From: Thermoplasmata archaeon
GTDB lineage: Archaea > Thermoplasmatota > E2 > DHVEG-1 > B18-G2
Assembly: GCA_003651105.1 (NCBI GenBank)
Contig: QMTN01000039.1
Span: 1 to 5,464 of the forward strand
DNA length: 5,464 bases
Reading direction: 5' to 3'
Shown here one piece after another: positions 47 to 5,464 of the stretch. Below the pieces are notes generated by a model. It was not told the DNA's origin. It searched no databases and worked only from the letters and a program-made list of their open reading frames with translations. Every line of letters starts with the position of its first letter. Position 1 is the stretch's first letter. The translations under genes were made by a program, and so were the position numbers.

Positions 47-904
47 TCACACCAGCTCAACTATCCTGTTCGTGAATACACACGGGGCTGCTGCATCGAA
101 TGTACCGGGTGCACCTATCTCTGGGACGAAGCTACCAGATATTGAAGCTCTTGGTGGCAAGCCGGAGCCATTGAATGCAGCGGAGAGGTTGACGATTATT
201 ATAGCCTTATCTCCAACATTCATACCATAGTTTCTGTAGATCGATCCATCCGCATCGTGCAAGGCTATGATACCAAATGTGGTTGCATTCAAGGTAACTT
301 TCAAAGTGTGGAATACCCCTTCTGGACCAACCCTTGGAGCAACGTATCCTTCCTCTGGAGAGTAGGTCAGGGTTATCAACCTGTCATACTTCAGATATAG
401 TATCGTGTTTTTCAGATCTATATCCTGAGAACCAGCCCTGGGTCTGATGGTCAGCGCCAGATGGGTTATATAGGTCTTGTTCTCGTTTGCATAACCAACC
501 GCATCTATAACCGCAAGACCGCTTGATATCTCTCTGGTTGTTTGCAGACCTACCTTGTTCGCCCTCTGCTGGAGAGTCTCTCCAGTCTTTATTAAGACGC
601 TCGCAGCAACAGCGGATACCAGAATCAGGGCTATGAAGACGATCAGGGTACCTATACCTACAAATGCGAGCTCATCGCCTTTTATACTTCTCCTCGATCT
701 CGGGGAGGACTTGGGCTTTATCGCCACTATGGATTTCAGATTCAAGCAACCCAGTCCCTGCTCAGAATCAACTATCACAAAACCCGCATCATAGTCAATC
801 TCCTCTAACCTACCTGAGATAACGCTCGCCTTCTCTTTACCGGGTTCCTTCAACACTATCTTACAGTACTTCCCCACCAGCCTATCCATATACCTCTTCT
901 CCAC
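47..904 (-). CDS. Archaellin-like protein with an N-terminal Sm/LSm-like domain (fusion), 285 aa
   Basis: The C-terminal part is an archaellin (archaeal flagellin), the filament subunit of the archaellum. Residues 76-105 carry the class III signal/core region: KGDELAFVGIGTLIVF and then a hydrophobic helix. LQQRA and SSGL follow, as in typical archaellins, then a beta-rich exported domain with four N-glycosylation sequons (N142, N206, N239, N245) and an archaellin-like ending (PEIGAP near 261, VELV at the end). Prepilin peptidase could cut after G76 or after A80, two residues before GIG. Residues 6-65 form a separate small beta-rich domain resembling Sm/LSm (GRLEEIDYDAGFVIVD, then a final strand IVAIKP), joined by a basic linker (66-75). 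Archaellin leaders are normally some 4-20 residues, so this extension is exceptional. The GTG start at 904 is chosen because a strong GGAGG lies 9 nt upstream. The only other candidates are Met6 and an internal GTG at residue 60 that has no ribosome site. The archaellin assignment is secure; the Sm-like fold is judged by eye. Confidence 0.85.
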   Translation of the reverse strand: MEKRYMDRLVGKYCKIVLKEPGKEKASVISGRLEEIDYDAGFVIVDSEQGLGCLNLKSIVAIKPKSSPRSRRSIKGDELAFVGIGTLIVFIALILVSAVAASVLIKTGETLQQRANKVGLQTTREISSGLAVIDAVGYANENKTYITHLALTIRPRAGSQDIDLKNTILYLKYDRLITLTYSPEEGYVAPRVGPEGVFHTLKVTLNATTFGIIALHDADGSIYRNYGMNVGDKAIIIVNLSAAFNGSGLPPRASISGSFVPEIGAPGTFDAAAPCVFTNRIVELV

Positions 905-927: not shown

Positions 928-960
928 CATTTCCCATGCGTTTTGCTTGCATGGGAAATG
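928..960 (-). repeat. Perfect 12-bp inverted repeat, 9-nt loop, in the 5' leader of the archaellin gene
   Basis: CATTTCCCATGC (928-939) and GCATGGGAAATG (949-960) are exact reverse complements separated by 9 nt. In the minus-strand transcript this forms a stable hairpin ending only 6 nt before the AAAGGAGG ribosome site. With the TATA box proposed at 990-997, the transcript would start near 965-968, so the stem would be almost at the mRNA 5' end. It may control mRNA stability or ribosome access, or the duplex may be an operator for a dimeric regulator between the divergent genes. The repeat is seen directly; its role is inference. Confidence 0.85.
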
Positions 961-988: not shown

Positions 989-999
989 TTATTTAAAGG
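989..999 (-). promoter_or_regulatory. Candidate TATA box for the minus-strand archaellin gene
   Basis: The minus strand reads CTTTAAATAAT here, preceded by ACC, which fits an archaeal TATA element (TTTAAATA) with a purine-poor BRE. Archaeal start sites lie about 25 bp downstream, here near 965-968. That gives a 5' leader of about 60 nt containing the 928-960 hairpin and the Shine-Dalgarno. It is the only convincing TATA-like element at a sensible distance on this side. Confidence 0.6.
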
Positions 1000-1113: not shown

Positions 1114-1683
1114 ATGGGAAACCAAGGAAGCACAGGGATAACCTGGATACTCCTCCTTACGATCCTCCTCCTCGTCAGCAGTAGCATAATCTATGGTCTC
1201 GCGAGCTCAGGAGATGAAGACGATCAAGACGTGGAGGATCTTCTGGAATCTGCTTTGAAAGAGATCGAATCGTATTTCGTCGTAAAGGAAGGATATGCCA
1301 AGATGAAAGATGAATATCTCATGATGGTTTTACTCATCAAACCTGTTTTCTCAACCCCAATACCCCTGTCAAACCTGACTCTAGAGGTAAACGATGGGAA
1401 GATGCTAAGGTTGCTCAACCTATCCGGGGTTTTTGATAGCAGGGATGTCTTTAATGAAGATTTCTGGAGTGATCTGAACCAGAGCTTCGCCATTGTACCG
1501 GTAATAGATAAAGATGGATCATTGAGGGAGGGATTTATCAATGGAGATCTATTCTATGCTGCCTTCAAGATTCCTAAGGATGCAGAGAGGATAGAGGTTT
1601 CCATAATATCTGGATATGGCTCGGTGTCAGAGGTAGAGATAACCCTACCCTTCTCCACAAGCGATGTTCTCAAGATATACTAA
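1114..1683 (+). CDS. Divergent archaellin-like / class III signal-peptide secreted protein, 189 aa
   Basis: The protein begins with a very short leader (MGNQG), then STGITWILLLTILLLVSSSIIYGL, a single hydrophobic helix of the archaellin/pilin type (residues 8-30). An acidic stretch (33-45) and a beta-rich exported domain follow. Residues 69-90 (YLMMVLLIKP...PIPLSNLTL) align by eye with residues 145-169 of the neighbouring archaellin (YITHLALTIRP...IDLKNTIL). The C-terminus (EVEITLPFSTSDVLKIY) resembles archaellin endings, so the two are probably distant paralogues. Three sequons are present (N87, N102, N122). The leader lacks the Lys/Arg that usually precedes the cleavage glycine, so processing after G5 is uncertain. 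It may be a minor filament subunit or an ArlF/ArlG-like stator component. The ATG is fixed by an upstream in-frame TAA and a TATA box 27 bp away. Its TAA overlaps the purH stop by 4 bp, tail to tail. Confidence 0.7.
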   Translation: MGNQGSTGITWILLLTILLLVSSSIIYGLASSGDEDDQDVEDLLESALKEIESYFVVKEGYAKMKDEYLMMVLLIKPVFSTPIPLSNLTLEVNDGKMLRLLNLSGVFDSRDVFNEDFWSDLNQSFAIVPVIDKDGSLREGFINGDLFYAAFKIPKDAERIEVSIISGYGSVSEVEITLPFSTSDVLKIY

Positions 1684-3212
1684 TGCTTGAAATATCTTCG
1701 ACCGGTGAACACCATGATAATCCCGTGTTCATCTGCTGCTTCTATCACTTCCTTATCTCTTATGGATCCGCCGGGCTGAACGATAGCTCTAATTCCAGCC
1801 TCCGCAGCGGAATCTATGGTATCTCTAAATGGAATGAATCCATCGCTGGCCATGATGGAGCCTTTCAGCCTGTTTCCGCCTTTCTTTCTTGCAATGAACA
1901 CGGAATCTATCCTCGCGGTCTGCCCTCCACCGATGGCAACGGTATAGGTATCTTTTACGAAGACTATCGCGTTCGATTTCACGTGCTTCACGCACTTAAC
2001 CGCAAAAACCATGGATCTTATATCATTACCTGTCGGTTTCCTTTTGGTGACAACCCTCCATTCTCCTGGATCTATACCTTTGATATCCTTATCCTGGATG
2101 AGCACCCCTCCAGTAACGCTTCTCAAAGATATGTCCGTGGATCTTTCCCTTTCGATCGGGACCTCGAGCAACCTGAGGTTTTTTCTTCTACTCAGCACCT
2201 CCAGGGCTGAATCCGAGAACTTCGGAGCGAGGATAACCTCAAGATAATGCTTATCCAGCTCCTTCGCCAGATCGAGATCGACCTCTCTATTGAATGCAAC
2301 AACACCTCCAAAAGGAGAGTAGGTATCCGTCTCGTACGCCTTCCTCCATGCGTCGATCAAATCCCTTGACGATGCTATACCGCAGGGGGTGGTGTGTTTT
2401 ATTATTACAGCAGTAGGATCGTCAAATTCCCTTATGCATTCGAGTGCAGAATCTGCATCCAAGATGTTGTTATAGGATAACTCCTTTCCCTGAAGCTTCC
2501 TTGCGAGGGTTATACCATCTCTCTTTTTATCCGGCAGGATCTTGTAAAGGGCTCCTTCCTGGTGGGGGTTCTCACCGTATCTCGTTTTTTGAACGAGTTC
2601 AAATGTCAAGGTGAGGCTTTTCGGGAAGTCTTCGCCGCCGAACCTCTTTCTCAGGTAGTTCGATATTATGGCATCGTACCTGGCAACATGCTCAAAAGCC
2701 TCGATGGCCAGCTTTCTCCTGAACTCATCATCTACTCCCTTCTTCAGCTTCTCTATCAGCTCACTGTATCGTGACGGATCTACAACGATCAGAACATTCT
2801 CGAAGTTCTTTGCTGCAGATCTTATGAGGGTTGGACCACCTATATCTATATTCTCCATGACCTCATCCAGATCAACGTCTTCCTTCTCTATGACCTTCTC
2901 GAAGGGATAGAGGTTGCAGATAACGAGATCTATGGGTCTTACGGATAATTCTTTCAGGATCCTCAAATGATCCGCATCCCTTCTGGCTAAGATACCCGCA
3001 TGCACCTTTGGGTGCAGGGTTTTTACCCTTCCGTCAAGTATCTCTGGAAAACCGGTTAGATCGGAAACCTCTATAACCTCTATCCCTCTTTCCCTGAGGA
3101 ACCTAGATGTACCTCCGGTTGAGATGATCTGAAAACCGAGTTCTTTCAGTTCCCTCGCGACCTCCTCTATACCTCTCTTATCATGAACGCTTATCAGTGC
3201 AAGCCTTTCCAT
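1680..3212 (-). CDS. purH: Bifunctional AICAR formyltransferase / IMP cyclohydrolase
   Basis: PurH carries out the last two steps of IMP synthesis in the cytoplasm: formylation of AICAR with 10-formyl-tetrahydrofolate, then ring closure of FAICAR. At 510 aa it has the normal bifunctional length. The N-terminal cyclohydrolase (MGS-fold) domain shows STGGT (31-35), TGFPEILDGRVKTLHPKVHAG (53-73), CNLYPF (99-104) and NIDIGGPTLIRSAAKN (121-136). The transformylase domain shows RYGENPHQ (211-218), LSYNNILDAD (245-254), IKHTTPCG with the Lys-His pair at 272-273, FGGVVAFNREVD (301-312), VKHVKSNAIV (408-417), GGGQTARIDS (428-437) and the conserved ASDGFIPFRD...QPGGSIRD...VFTGRR ending. The usual KHxNPCG asparagine is Thr275. 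Many archaea use PurP and PurO instead, so a full bifunctional PurH is a lineage marker and possibly of bacterial origin. ATG 3212 matches the family N-terminus. It has its own promoter and converges on the gene at 1114-1683. Confidence 0.97.
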   Translation of the reverse strand: MERLALISVHDKRGIEEVARELKELGFQIISTGGTSRFLRERGIEVIEVSDLTGFPEILDGRVKTLHPKVHAGILARRDADHLRILKELSVRPIDLVICNLYPFEKVIEKEDVDLDEVMENIDIGGPTLIRSAAKNFENVLIVVDPSRYSELIEKLKKGVDDEFRRKLAIEAFEHVARYDAIISNYLRKRFGGEDFPKSLTLTFELVQKTRYGENPHQEGALYKILPDKKRDGITLARKLQGKELSYNNILDADSALECIREFDDPTAVIIKHTTPCGIASSRDLIDAWRKAYETDTYSPFGGVVAFNREVDLDLAKELDKHYLEVILAPKFSDSALEVLSRRKNLRLLEVPIERERSTDISLRSVTGGVLIQDKDIKGIDPGEWRVVTKRKPTGNDIRSMVFAVKCVKHVKSNAIVFVKDTYTVAIGGGQTARIDSVFIARKKGGNRLKGSIMASDGFIPFRDTIDSAAEAGIRAIVQPGGSIRDKEVIEAADEHGIIMVFTGRRYFKH

Positions 3213-3220
3213 GAAGCTTA

Positions 3221-3258
3221 CCCAAAGGCAATAAGAAAATTAAAAATAAATCTTTGGG
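3221..3258 (-). promoter_or_regulatory. purH promoter: AT-rich TATA element flanked by a 7-bp inverted repeat
   Basis: In the 53-bp gap between the nuclease stop and the purH ATG, the minus strand has ATTTATTTTTAATTTTC (3251-3235). A TATA box at 3250-3241 would place the transcription start near 3219, giving a near-leaderless mRNA of about 7 nt. No good Shine-Dalgarno precedes the ATG, which agrees. CCCAAAG (3221-3227) and CTTTGGG (3252-3258), as read on the plus strand, form an inverted repeat bracketing the TATA element. This symmetry could serve a dimeric regulator, though none of this is proven by sequence alone. Confidence 0.5.
3235..3251 (-). terminator. Possible T-rich terminator of the cca-nuclease transcript
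   Basis: The transcript leaving the nuclease gene (stop at 3266) meets two close T runs (TTTATTTTTAATTTTC) about 15-30 nt after the stop. Archaeal RNA polymerase often terminates at such T-rich stretches without a hairpin. The same bases are proposed as the purH TATA element, so the dual role is uncertain and readthrough into purH is possible. Confidence 0.35.
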
Positions 3259-3265
3259 ATGATCC

Positions 3266-4012
3266 TCAGTTCCTTGCCCTCCTGATCGCATCTTCCAGCC
3301 TGATCTCCCCCCTGAGCACCTTCAGCGCCATCTCTCTCGATATCGTTATCCTCCCTCCGCTCATGATCCTGCTCCTCCTCTGGATCTCCTTTATCTCGCC
3401 ATTCGTGAAACCCTTAGATTCTGTATCAAACCTCGAGGATCCTATGGATCTGGCTATCATTATTGCTGATATCTCGTTCCTCTCCAATCTGGAGCTGGCT
3501 CTCACCTGGCTGGTCCTGCTCTCGTCGACGACCTCGATCTCCACATCCAGTTGTTTCAGCCCATCTATGATCCTGTCCCTGTATCTACCCGCGCCATGTC
3601 CTATCCTCACGATCTTTTCTTGATCAGAGAAGTCCTTCAGTATTTCCTTGATTATGCTCAGCGCCTCTTCTGGAGAGGATGCGCACCACGTTCTGAGGAC
3701 CTTTTCTCCCGATAAAAGGGCTATGCCCGGGTACTCTCCTGGATCCACGCCTATAACTATCCTCTCTCCTCCATGAAGTATATGGATCGCCCTGTCCAGA
3801 GCTGAATCTATGGTTCTGAAACAGTCCGCATAGATAACCTTCTTCTTGGTGATTTCCCTGCCTTCTGCTGAGGATGTTATTATCACCCCAACCCTCGATG
3901 GCATGTTCTCTATGGAGTGTAGCTGGACAAACTCGATACCTCTCTCCTTCAGCTTCTCAATTATATCGTGGGAAAGGGAGAAATCCTTCGTGTAGATCCC
4001 TATCACCTTCAT
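3266..4012 (-). CDS. Predicted RNase H-fold (RuvC/YqgF-like) nuclease, archaeal family, 248 aa
   Basis: Residues 1-80 form a small N-terminal alpha/beta domain (MKVIGIYTKDFSLSHDIIEK...GVIITS). The RNase H-like fold begins with ERIVIGVDPGEYPGIALL (83-100); D90 in GVDPG is the expected first metal ligand. A later strand ends in IEVVDES (159-165, D163/E164 candidates). The closing helix RNEISAIMIARS (178-189) has E180 where RuvC has an acidic residue, and a Ser where RuvC has its last Asp. The conserved-looking tail 206-225 (EIKEIQRRSRIMSGGRITIS) may bind nucleic acid. By fold it may cut branched DNA or process RNA; the substrate is unknown. The ATG at 4012 overlaps the cca stop as ATGA, so translation is coupled. 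A GTG three codons earlier is possible but less likely. The neighbour hints at RNA metabolism, but operon position alone is weak evidence. Fold assignment is fairly sure; activity is not. Confidence 0.7.
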   Translation of the reverse strand: MKVIGIYTKDFSLSHDIIEKLKERGIEFVQLHSIENMPSRVGVIITSSAEGREITKKKVIYADCFRTIDSALDRAIHILHGGERIVIGVDPGEYPGIALLSGEKVLRTWCASSPEEALSIIKEILKDFSDQEKIVRIGHGAGRYRDRIIDGLKQLDVEIEVVDESRTSQVRASSRLERNEISAIMIARSIGSSRFDTESKGFTNGEIKEIQRRSRIMSGGRITISREMALKVLRGEIRLEDAIRRARN

Positions 4013-5343
4013 CTTTCCCACGGCATCTTCCTTTCTATGTAATCTGTCCAGAATAACTTCAGATCGTCTCTTAATAAATCTTTCGATGACAATATCTTGT
4101 ATCTACCTTCCTTCACCATTTTCTCTATATCTTTGCCTAAACTTAAGCGCTCGATGTTTTTTCTCAGAAAATCCTCGATCCTCCTGTATCTTCTCTTCAC
4201 CTCCACGTACCATCTTCCATCTTTCAAGTATGGTCCCCTCACAACATCCTTGCTCCCTTTCCACTTCTCGAGGAATGCCCTGACGTGCATTTCCTCCTTC
4301 TCTGGAGGACCCCTGTGGATGTAGGTCTCGTCGAGCTCCATCATCTTGGGTTTCATTATCATATAAACCTTATCCTCCGTAACCACGAATCTGCCATCAT
4401 CTATCTTGAAACCATTCTCTTCACATGACCTGATGATCCTTCTGAGCGTCTTCCTTGCCTGGGGATAGAGGTTATCTGGTATTATATCAGGTTTCTCTAT
4501 CTCGATGCCAACGAAACCGGTTATCTTCTCTCTAATCTTCTCATCAGGTAGGGGTTTAAGTTCTCTTGGAAAGAAGAATCTTTCACTCGGTCTCAACAGG
4601 TATTCCCTGCAAGCTCTCTTGAATATCTCAAGCTTCTCCTCCGATACCGCAGAAGCAACATTCCTGTTTGGATCAACCGGATCTATGAAAATGAGGGGAT
4701 CCCTGAATGTACGAGATGGCACATCATGTAGTTTTATAACCTCTCCCTTTTTCCAGTCCTTTGCATTCTTGAGCACCTCCCTGAAAGAGCCGTATTTCAG
4801 GATGAGTAGCTCGCAGAGGTATCCCGAAAAACCCTCGACCTCTGCTTCCGCACCGTAGCACCCTATGCCTTTCAAGAACTGCTTCAGCAATCTGACCTCC
4901 TTCCTCTTCCTTGCAGATAGGTTCCTTCTTATAAAATCGGTGTGGAAGGGTGTTCTATCCACAGCGGTTATCCTCTCCGTTGCCCTCTCCACCCTGTAAC
5001 ACGGAACTATCTCGATCTCGTAACCCTTGAACTTACCTTTAACATACGGATGCTCAGCATACCTCTCTTCCCAATCCTCTAGAACCTCCTTTCCTATCTC
5101 CAGACCCTTCCTCTCCATCTCCTTTCTGGGTGTGCTCGGTGGAAAGAGAAGGAAGATGTCTATATCTATGGATCCCCTCAGGTAGGTATCCTTGGCAACG
5201 GATCCGACCAGTTTTGGAGTAACATCGATACCTTTCTCCCTTATGGAATTCTCTATCCTCTCCATTACTTCCGCAACGACCTCCTTCAACCTCCTCCTCT
5301 CGGCGAGGCTGGGAGTTATCCTTCTTAGCACTCCCCTCTCCAT
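4009..5343 (-). CDS. cca: CCA-adding enzyme (archaeal class I tRNA nucleotidyltransferase)
   Basis: The enzyme adds or repairs the 3' CCA of tRNAs from CTP and ATP without a nucleic acid template. Numbering from the ATG at 5343 (444 aa, normal length for the class): the nucleotidyltransferase head shows LVGSVAKDTYLRGSIDIDIFLLF (45-67), then AEHPYVKG (96-103), EIEIVPCY (109-116) and AVDRTPFH (127-134). The central domain shows RKEVRLLKQFLKG (147-159) and GAEAEVEGFSGYLCELLILKYGSF (164-187). The body continues with DPVDPNRNVA (221-230), FFFPRE and KPDIIPDNLYPQ (284-295). Compared with the Archaeoglobus enzyme (Glu59, Asp61, Asp110), the catalytic carboxylates here appear as D60, D62 and E111. 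In-frame GTG starts at 5352 and 5361 are possible; no start has a strong ribosome site. Upstream the frame stays open into a PAP2-like segment, so the true product may be longer. The downstream nuclease is coupled by ATGA. Confidence 0.95.
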   Translation of the reverse strand: MERGVLRRITPSLAERRRLKEVVAEVMERIENSIREKGIDVTPKLVGSVAKDTYLRGSIDIDIFLLFPPSTPRKEMERKGLEIGKEVLEDWEERYAEHPYVKGKFKGYEIEIVPCYRVERATERITAVDRTPFHTDFIRRNLSARKRKEVRLLKQFLKGIGCYGAEAEVEGFSGYLCELLILKYGSFREVLKNAKDWKKGEVIKLHDVPSRTFRDPLIFIDPVDPNRNVASAVSEEKLEIFKRACREYLLRPSERFFFPRELKPLPDEKIREKITGFVGIEIEKPDIIPDNLYPQARKTLRRIIRSCEENGFKIDDGRFVVTEDKVYMIMKPKMMELDETYIHRGPPEKEEMHVRAFLEKWKGSKDVVRGPYLKDGRWYVEVKRRYRRIEDFLRKNIERLSLGKDIEKMVKEGRYKILSSKDLLRDDLKLFWTDYIERKMPWER

Positions 5344-5464
5344 GCTGTTCACTCGATCCACCAGAATAGAGGATAGGGCAAAAAGGATTACACCTCCAGC
5401 CACGTCCGTCAACCAGTGGATGGAGAGGTAGATGACAGAAAATACGACCCCGAATGCGGAGAGC
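5344..5464 (-). CDS. Partial PAP2-superfamily-like membrane protein C-terminus, in frame with cca
   Basis: The last 40 codons before the cca ATG, truncated by the window edge, encode a hydrophobic segment containing FSVIYLSIHWLTDVAGGVIL and then FALSSILVDRV. This matches the third PAP2 (type 2 phosphatidic acid phosphatase) motif, SRx5Hx3D, including its conserved His and Asp (HWLTD), followed by the usual last transmembrane helix. Such proteins dephosphorylate lipid or isoprenoid phosphates at the membrane. The Arg of the SR pair is Val here, so activity may be altered. No stop codon occurs between this segment and cca in the shared frame. Either the two are one fused protein, the stop has been lost, or there is a frameshift error. 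Family identity rests on about 30 residues and is moderately sure. Confidence 0.6.

Follow-up and report, generated by a model that had tools for sequence, protein, structure and literature searches.

An archaellin gene with a predicted Sm/Hfq-fold domain in place of its short leader

The leaders of class III signal peptides are generally regarded as short throw-away stubs. The subject of this study is an archaellin gene on the minus strand (47-904) of a 5,464-nucleotide stretch of the Thermoplasmata archaeon contig QMTN01000039.1; the whole stretch is called the window. It raises the question why a filament subunit should carry about 80 residues, most of them in a domain of predicted Sm/Hfq-type fold, ahead of its predicted cleavage position. 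The fusion is a new domain architecture in a known kind of protein. Most genomes of the order keep this conserved domain in the leader's place, and lineages without the archaellum (arl) cluster have kept the domain.

The fused gene, its start and its cleavage position

The gene is a single unbroken frame that begins with GTG and encodes 285 residues. Its parts are as follows.

713..904 (-): N-terminal domain with predicted Sm/Hfq fold, residues 1-64; GTG start at 904
665..712 (-): variable basic linker, residues 65-80; linker identity 0.34; ends at the predicted class III cut
between 665 and 664 (-): predicted class III cleavage position, A80 to F81; residue -1 is A or G in homologues
47..664 (-): archaellin core (PF01917), residues 81-285 and the stop codon
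912..918 (-): Shine-Dalgarno sequence GGAGGTG of the long form, read from the sequence; similar motifs precede the relatives

Residues 80-269 match PF01917 (E 1.1e-31; 110.8 bits against a cut-off of 29.5), and the core matches the flagellin model PRK08541 at 1e-54, under the curated cut-off. The NCBIfam models did not support membership in the ArlG/ArlF stator proteins, the ArlG model giving 27.3 bits against an equivalog cut-off of 110. Existing names for the fused protein are 'flagellin', 'flagellin FlaB' or 'hypothetical', and no description of an LSm-archaellin fusion was found among the papers listed in searches of open-licence PMC. Among 52 homologues the mean pairwise identity is 0.78 in the domain, 0.34 in the linker, 0.77 in the filament helix and 0.52 in the outer beta domain. 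The domain is conserved as well as the filament helix.

Within the order, the fusion was found in 31 of 52 genomes (59 genomes searched), counting one (G031) with a partial copy at a contig end and a TAG inside. A sequencing artefact or a chance open reading frame was rejected because of this distribution. One fused copy is present in 29 of the 31 carriers and two each in G014 and G020. A protein search returned 738 matches, and the 120 listed all hold domain, linker and archaellin, one of them (P0011) without its first residues; the nearest named relative, from a Candidatus Thermoplasmatota metagenome-assembled genome, is 89% identical. With a profile of the domain, matches were obtained in 44 of 80 genomes of the class (E up to 0.01) and, at E up to 0.001, in 44 of 389 genomes sampled across the phylum; every matching genome belongs to this order. 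The order is inferred to be Thermoprofundales (marine benthic group D), one reason being the pfk gene, described in a passage of PMC9287336 as present in most Thermoprofundales. The genome of the window (G000; 599 kb, 70.6% complete) has three other archaellin matches, one cut by a contig end, and all without the domain. In a quick tree of 60 archaellin cores, sampled from the collected loci only, one branch with a Shimodaira-Hasegawa-like approximate likelihood ratio (SH-aLRT) support of 100 splits 32 fused from 28 ordinary cores. Because the fused cores sit on one side of this branch, the fusion likely arose once.

The GGAGGTG motif is spaced 7 nucleotides from the GTG start. By eye, a Shine-Dalgarno-like motif (GGTG, GGAGG or GGAAG) precedes all 27 fused genes with upstream sequence; the 28th (L031), with 3 nucleotides upstream only, stands outside this count. 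An internal start yielding an ordinary archaellin was considered and rejected as unlikely, since between codon 50 and the archaellin only 1 of 30 fused genes has a start codon with a 4-base Shine-Dalgarno-like match and 18 of the 30 have no start codon at all. The internal candidates in the window gene are TTG54 and GTG60, both without a Shine-Dalgarno sequence.

The protein of the window carries a class III signal, with A80, G83 and then a hydrophobic helix. Residue -1 to the helix motif is Ala in 97 and Gly in 23 of the 120 homologues, and it is A or G in all 28 fused genes read from the loci. The ordinary archaellins of the same genomes, with short leaders, likewise have Ala or Gly there in 28 of 28. 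All 120 homologues have Gly at +3, although this residue was required by the pattern that located the site. Positions -2 and +1 are variable (entropy 3.0 and 2.6 bits). Basic residues at -2 and -3, usual in other archaellins according to a section of PMC4307647, are largely replaced in the fused homologues, which are mostly acidic at -3/-4; the basic pair is mostly missing from the order's ordinary archaellins too. A Peptidase_A24 gene was found in 46 of the 59 genomes, including that of the window. Since all 120 homologues have Ala or Gly at -1, in a linker that otherwise varies, cleavage after A80 is likely. The leader so defined has about 80 residues, where the same section of PMC4307647 gives 6-12 as typical of the processed part.

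The original prediction for this DNA had described an uninterrupted frame with a strong Shine-Dalgarno sequence for the long form, no good start just before the archaellin, and an unusually long leader ending at a class III cleavage site on a true archaellin. The 285-residue frame, the motifs before 27 of 27 genes, the internal starts of the 30 fused genes, the 80 residues ahead of the archaellin core and the conserved -1 position bear this out. The frame is intact, with no stop or frameshift between domain and archaellin, and the relatives do not all begin near residue 60-75, as the three-part make-up of the 120 listed homologues demonstrates. Of the two mature N-termini proposed, D77 or F81, the latter is expected from a cut after A80 and the former is not.

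The predicted fold of the domain and its persistence without the archaellum

An AlphaFold2 model of the domain has an alpha helix and a five-stranded bent barrel, the arrangement by which Sm, LSm and Hfq proteins are recognised. Of the best 50 structure matches to the model (VIA rows), 49 are Hfq, Sm or Gemin chains. The domain is thus predicted from the model to have an Sm/Hfq-type fold. Residues 1-64 gave no Pfam family above cut-off, and the Sm/LSm profile PF01423 neither matched the window domain nor appeared among the families matched by 21 members. An hhalign comparison of the domain with five Sm-like archaeal proteins (SmAPs) of these and related genomes was not significant (probability 0.45%), and the Sm2 'RG' pair of SmAPs was not seen by eye in the domain alignment. 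By sequence, the domain is not a member of the Pfam LSM family. The family DUF150_C (PF17384) reached E 0.023 with the window domain (15.4 bits, cut-off 26.3) and matched 17 of the 21 members at E up to 1, the best at 5.2e-4. The sole match of a PDB sequence search with the domain profile, a phosphate acetyltransferase at E 0.037, was taken as chance. The domain had originally been called Sm/LSm-like: the fold stands as a prediction, with Hfq, Sm and Gemin chains at the top of the structure matches instead of an unrelated fold, while membership in Pfam LSM and a significant SmAP profile comparison do not.

This leads to the question whether the domain depends on the archaellum. Of the 52 order genomes, 32 gave a strong ArlJ match (E no worse than 7.1e-90, the next being 6.9e-14), and 29 of these 32 carry the fusion. 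The ArlJ-positive genomes without the domain are G009, G017 and G032. Fused-type archaellins without the domain were looked for in these three, but the 11 cores read, out of 17 archaellin matches, were all closer to ordinary than to fused archaellins. Among the 20 genomes without strong ArlJ, 2 are fused (G045 and G050; 65 and 63% complete), 8 have the domain alone and 10 have neither. The last group includes G038 and G049 with other stand-alone copies, G036 with copies containing stops, and G029 with a distant relative.

The eight domain-alone genomes (G018, G021, G023, G024, G034, G037, G047 and G051) hold intact genes of arl-locus type with 67-83 codons, and all eight of these split genes fall in genomes without strong ArlJ. 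Five of them adjoin arl-cluster remnants or a 6-phosphofructokinase (PFK) gene. The order in G021 is pilin-like remnant, intact domain, archaellin remnant, ArlJ C-terminal remnant, PFK and archaellin remnant; in G037 it is intact domain, ArlJ C-terminal remnant and PFK; in G023 and G024 the domain adjoins PFK. In G047 (L053, about 1390-3600) the domain is joined to a degraded archaellin resembling another paralogue, with PFK and an ArlJ remnant reversed beyond it, as if two archaellin genes had recombined and inverted the arl cluster. For G018, G034 and G051 no arl remnant was found within the stretch read; they were classed as arl-locus type by sequence and promoter likeness and are weaker cases because these genomes are 85, 74 and 56% complete.

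G034 and G051 belong to one genus and both have the split form; between them, 19 of 154 nonsynonymous sites and 17 of 41 synonymous sites have changed (Fisher 7.4e-5). The ratio of nonsynonymous to synonymous divergence (dN/dS) has a median of 0.07 for pairs of fused copies and 0.12 for pairs of split copies, computed from pairs with usable dS only (192 of 435 fused, 17 of 28 split). By these substitution patterns the split domain is under purifying selection, and it appears to have been kept for its own sake after the loss of motility. Because it is intact in eight genomes without strong ArlJ, the domain would be useful alone.

Stand-alone genes, for which a search had originally been suggested, thus exist at the arl locus, and stand-alone paralogues are also scattered over more than ten genomes, mostly with 63-73 residues and a few truncated. 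Some f2 genomes hold several each; in the five f1 genomes no copy besides the fused one was found with the domain profile. Very distant relatives of 63-64 residues were seen by eye on the reverse strand amid small, possibly mobile-element frames (L121:2994, L122:3007).

The 5' leader and the possible role of the domain

Two further features lie upstream of the Shine-Dalgarno sequence.

928..960 (-): 5'-leader hairpin, 12-base-pair stem CATTTCCCATGC / GCATGGGAAATG with a 9-nucleotide loop; folding z score -6.6 in the window
990..997 (-): TATA-like box TTTAAATA, read from the sequence; similar boxes precede the relatives

The mean folding z of 38 leaders of fused and split genes is -2.42, with 29 of 38 below -1 (a second frame of L012 that looks like a misplaced start was kept in). 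In comparison, 28 ordinary archaellin leaders gave a mean of -0.72 with 11 below -1, and two stretches further upstream gave about 0. The split-gene leaders keep the hairpin less well (mean -1.42; 5 of 8 below -1). When 30 leaders were aligned by sequence only, 72.8% of the cells were paired as against 23-37% in slid controls, and 16 cells were double-changed as against 6.3 in shuffles; cells paired and the covariation score were likewise above the shuffles. The numbers of pairs with double changes (4; 219 of 500 shuffles) and of further pair types (12; 61 of 500) were not clearly above them. RNAalifold returned only a weak 4-base-pair alternative on a sequence-only alignment, and Rfam had no match. 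By the leader alignment the hairpin is conserved with compensatory changes.

Stand-alone Sm-like genes with long 5' leaders fall by eye into two recurring sequence types (L091, L094, L097, L099, L102, L107 and L114; L093, L095, L096, L103 and L124). No clear sign of structure came from the leaders of the scattered stand-alone paralogues (mean z -0.29 and -0.58).

The TTTAAATA box is inferred to be part of the promoter. A TTGNGAACANNNTACATG promoter block was considered as a private control element and rejected: when one mismatch is allowed, 36 sites are listed in 28 of the 59 genomes, including some ahead of unrelated genes, whereas the reversed control has 4. The upstream TTTTGACATTTTGACACGAT block is common across whole genomes. 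Both were taken as a general promoter style because they are widespread and some sites precede unrelated genes. The combined TTTTGACATTTTGACACGAT-N3-TTTATATA block (up to 3 mismatches) occurs in 29 of the 59 genomes, with none for the reversed control pattern and with 22, 15 and 13 sites in the f2 genomes G040, G050 and G025; it looks like a lineage-wide upstream element for an unnamed factor.

The best explanation, to which we give an even chance, is that the Sm/Hfq-like leader is cut after Ala80 and acts freely in the cytoplasm while the rest becomes a filament subunit. A single preprotein would be made in which the domain replaces the short archaellin leader, and an A24 prepilin peptidase would likely cut it after Ala80. 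The domain would then be set free in the cytoplasm and the remainder would enter the filament. Like its stand-alone paralogues, the domain could be a small trans-acting regulator whose targets are RNA or partner proteins, and the conserved leader hairpin is a plausible target of its own, allowing autoregulation. With one domain released for each subunit processed, the supply of regulator would follow archaellin maturation. Should the cleaved domain act on RNA, prepilin peptidase would belong to a signalling pathway, and archaeal motility would have a sensor of filament assembly built into it.

A narrower proposal is that the archaellin carries its own regulator, each maturation event freeing an Hfq-like domain that binds the structured leader of the archaellin's own mRNA, among other messages, and thereby signals to translation that filaments are being assembled. 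We consider this possible but rather doubtful; it would make of a leader peptide a signalling molecule.

The main rival, fed by analogy with cyanobacterial Hfq, which according to excerpts from PMC4390875 and PMC8092324 binds the pilus base via PilB1, is that some or all of the protein escapes cleavage and that its Sm-like domain serves as a cytoplasmic knob by which this minor archaellin docks on the motor ArlI/ArlH/ArlJ. ArlJ is present in 29 of the 31 fusion carriers; in the arl clusters read, the gene occupies one end; and the fused archaellins form their own group, single-copy in 29 of 31 carriers and accompanied by ordinary archaellins. Yet the Ala or Gly at -1 in all 120 homologues favours cutting, and the domain survives without strong ArlJ in eight genomes and is missing from three ArlJ-positive ones, so that docking seems unlikely. 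If it does occur, it offers a handle on the communication between filament subunits and a cytoplasmic ring.

The fusion could also be an operon-like convenience, in which two unrelated products share one frame and a single regulated message and the domain has a housekeeping role unlinked to motility. The scattered paralogues, the variable linker and the retention of the domain after archaellum loss agree with this, but the fusion is unsplit in 29 of 32 ArlJ-positive genomes and every split gene lies in a genome without strong ArlJ, and we consider it improbable. The alternative named in the original prediction, a chaperone-like cap that maintains the solubility of the pre-archaellin, or else one that sets the time of its export, would fit the strong conservation and the position ahead of a hydrophobic helix, but is hardly credible, because the domain seems useful alone, being intact and under purifying selection in eight genomes without strong ArlJ, and ordinary archaellins in the same genomes do without it.

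Independent of these readings, the domain defines a family of predicted Sm fold with stand-alone paralogues, open to study in vitro.

Genomic surroundings and relation to known systems

In all seven arl clusters read (L039, L041, L042, L043, L045, L047 and L051) the fused gene stands at one end. The clusters contain ArlJ, ArlI, ArlH, ArlG, ArlF and two ArlC/D/E-like frames, named by position only, followed by the fused archaellin and a divergent small gene; a PAS protein is present in several. With NCBIfam models on L039, both ArlI, PFK and the PAS domain were over the cut-offs and ArlJ, ArlH, ArlG and ArlF under the strict ones. The motor ATPase gene of ArlI type is in tandem in six of the seven clusters (L039, L041, L043, L045, L047, L051) and single in L042 of G022. 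The PFK gene lies within the arl cluster (L039:7291-8385, also L043 and L051), adjoining ArlJ in these three of five f2 clusters.

The divergent gene is found in the window as well.

1114..1683 (+): divergent gene for a small class III-type protein; relatives have a counterpart at this position

The window copy had no match over cut-off. The gene is probably a minor archaellin or pilin, because its counterparts in the two relatives tested match the archaellin family PF01917 (7.9e-10 and 2.8e-08).

Two other frames of the window were noted. At 4009-5463 (-) a CCA-adding enzyme frame is continuous with a PAP2-type membrane phosphatase domain, an unusual pairing; the phosphatase part matches PF01569 at only 0.0056. 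The same fusion is clear in L047:3850-5970 and L046:2-1981, with PF14378 at 1.5e-14 and 1.1e-10 and three CCA-enzyme domains. The frame at 3266-4021 (-), of 251 residues, has no Pfam match above cut-off (DUF460 E 0.15); like frames stand beside purH in relatives.

Compared with archaellins processed by FlaK/PibD (PF01917), the fused protein is alike in its helix GIGTLIVFIA, the beta domain, the Gly or Ala before the cut and the location in an arl cluster. It differs in the leader, typically of 6-12 residues by the literature section cited above and here of about 80 with a predicted folded domain. Unlike archaeal SmAP/Hfq proteins (Methanocaldococcus jannaschii Hfq, PDB 5dy9; SmAP1, 1loj), the domain has no LSM/Hfq family match, and canonical PF01423 LSM genes are also present in 56 of the 59 genomes. 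The C-terminal domain of RimP (DUF150_C) is the best sequence lead, but a weak one, and the N-terminal domain of RimP is missing here.

The closest precedent, by analogy, is cyanobacterial Hfq on the type IV pilus base. There, too, an Sm-fold protein is tied physically and functionally to a type IV filament machine, as loss of pilus genes changes Hfq-dependent transcripts in the accounts excerpted from PMC4390875 and PMC8092324. That Hfq, however, is bacterial and a separate protein docking on the ATPase, neither fused to a filament subunit nor freed by prepilin peptidase. Modular type IV pilins likewise combine a pilin with an extra folded module; an example is PilB of Streptococcus sanguinis (PMC8179133). 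In the fused archaellin the domain lies ahead of the cut and would remain cytoplasmic, whereas the module of such pilins is attached at the outer, C-terminal end and is retained in the filament.
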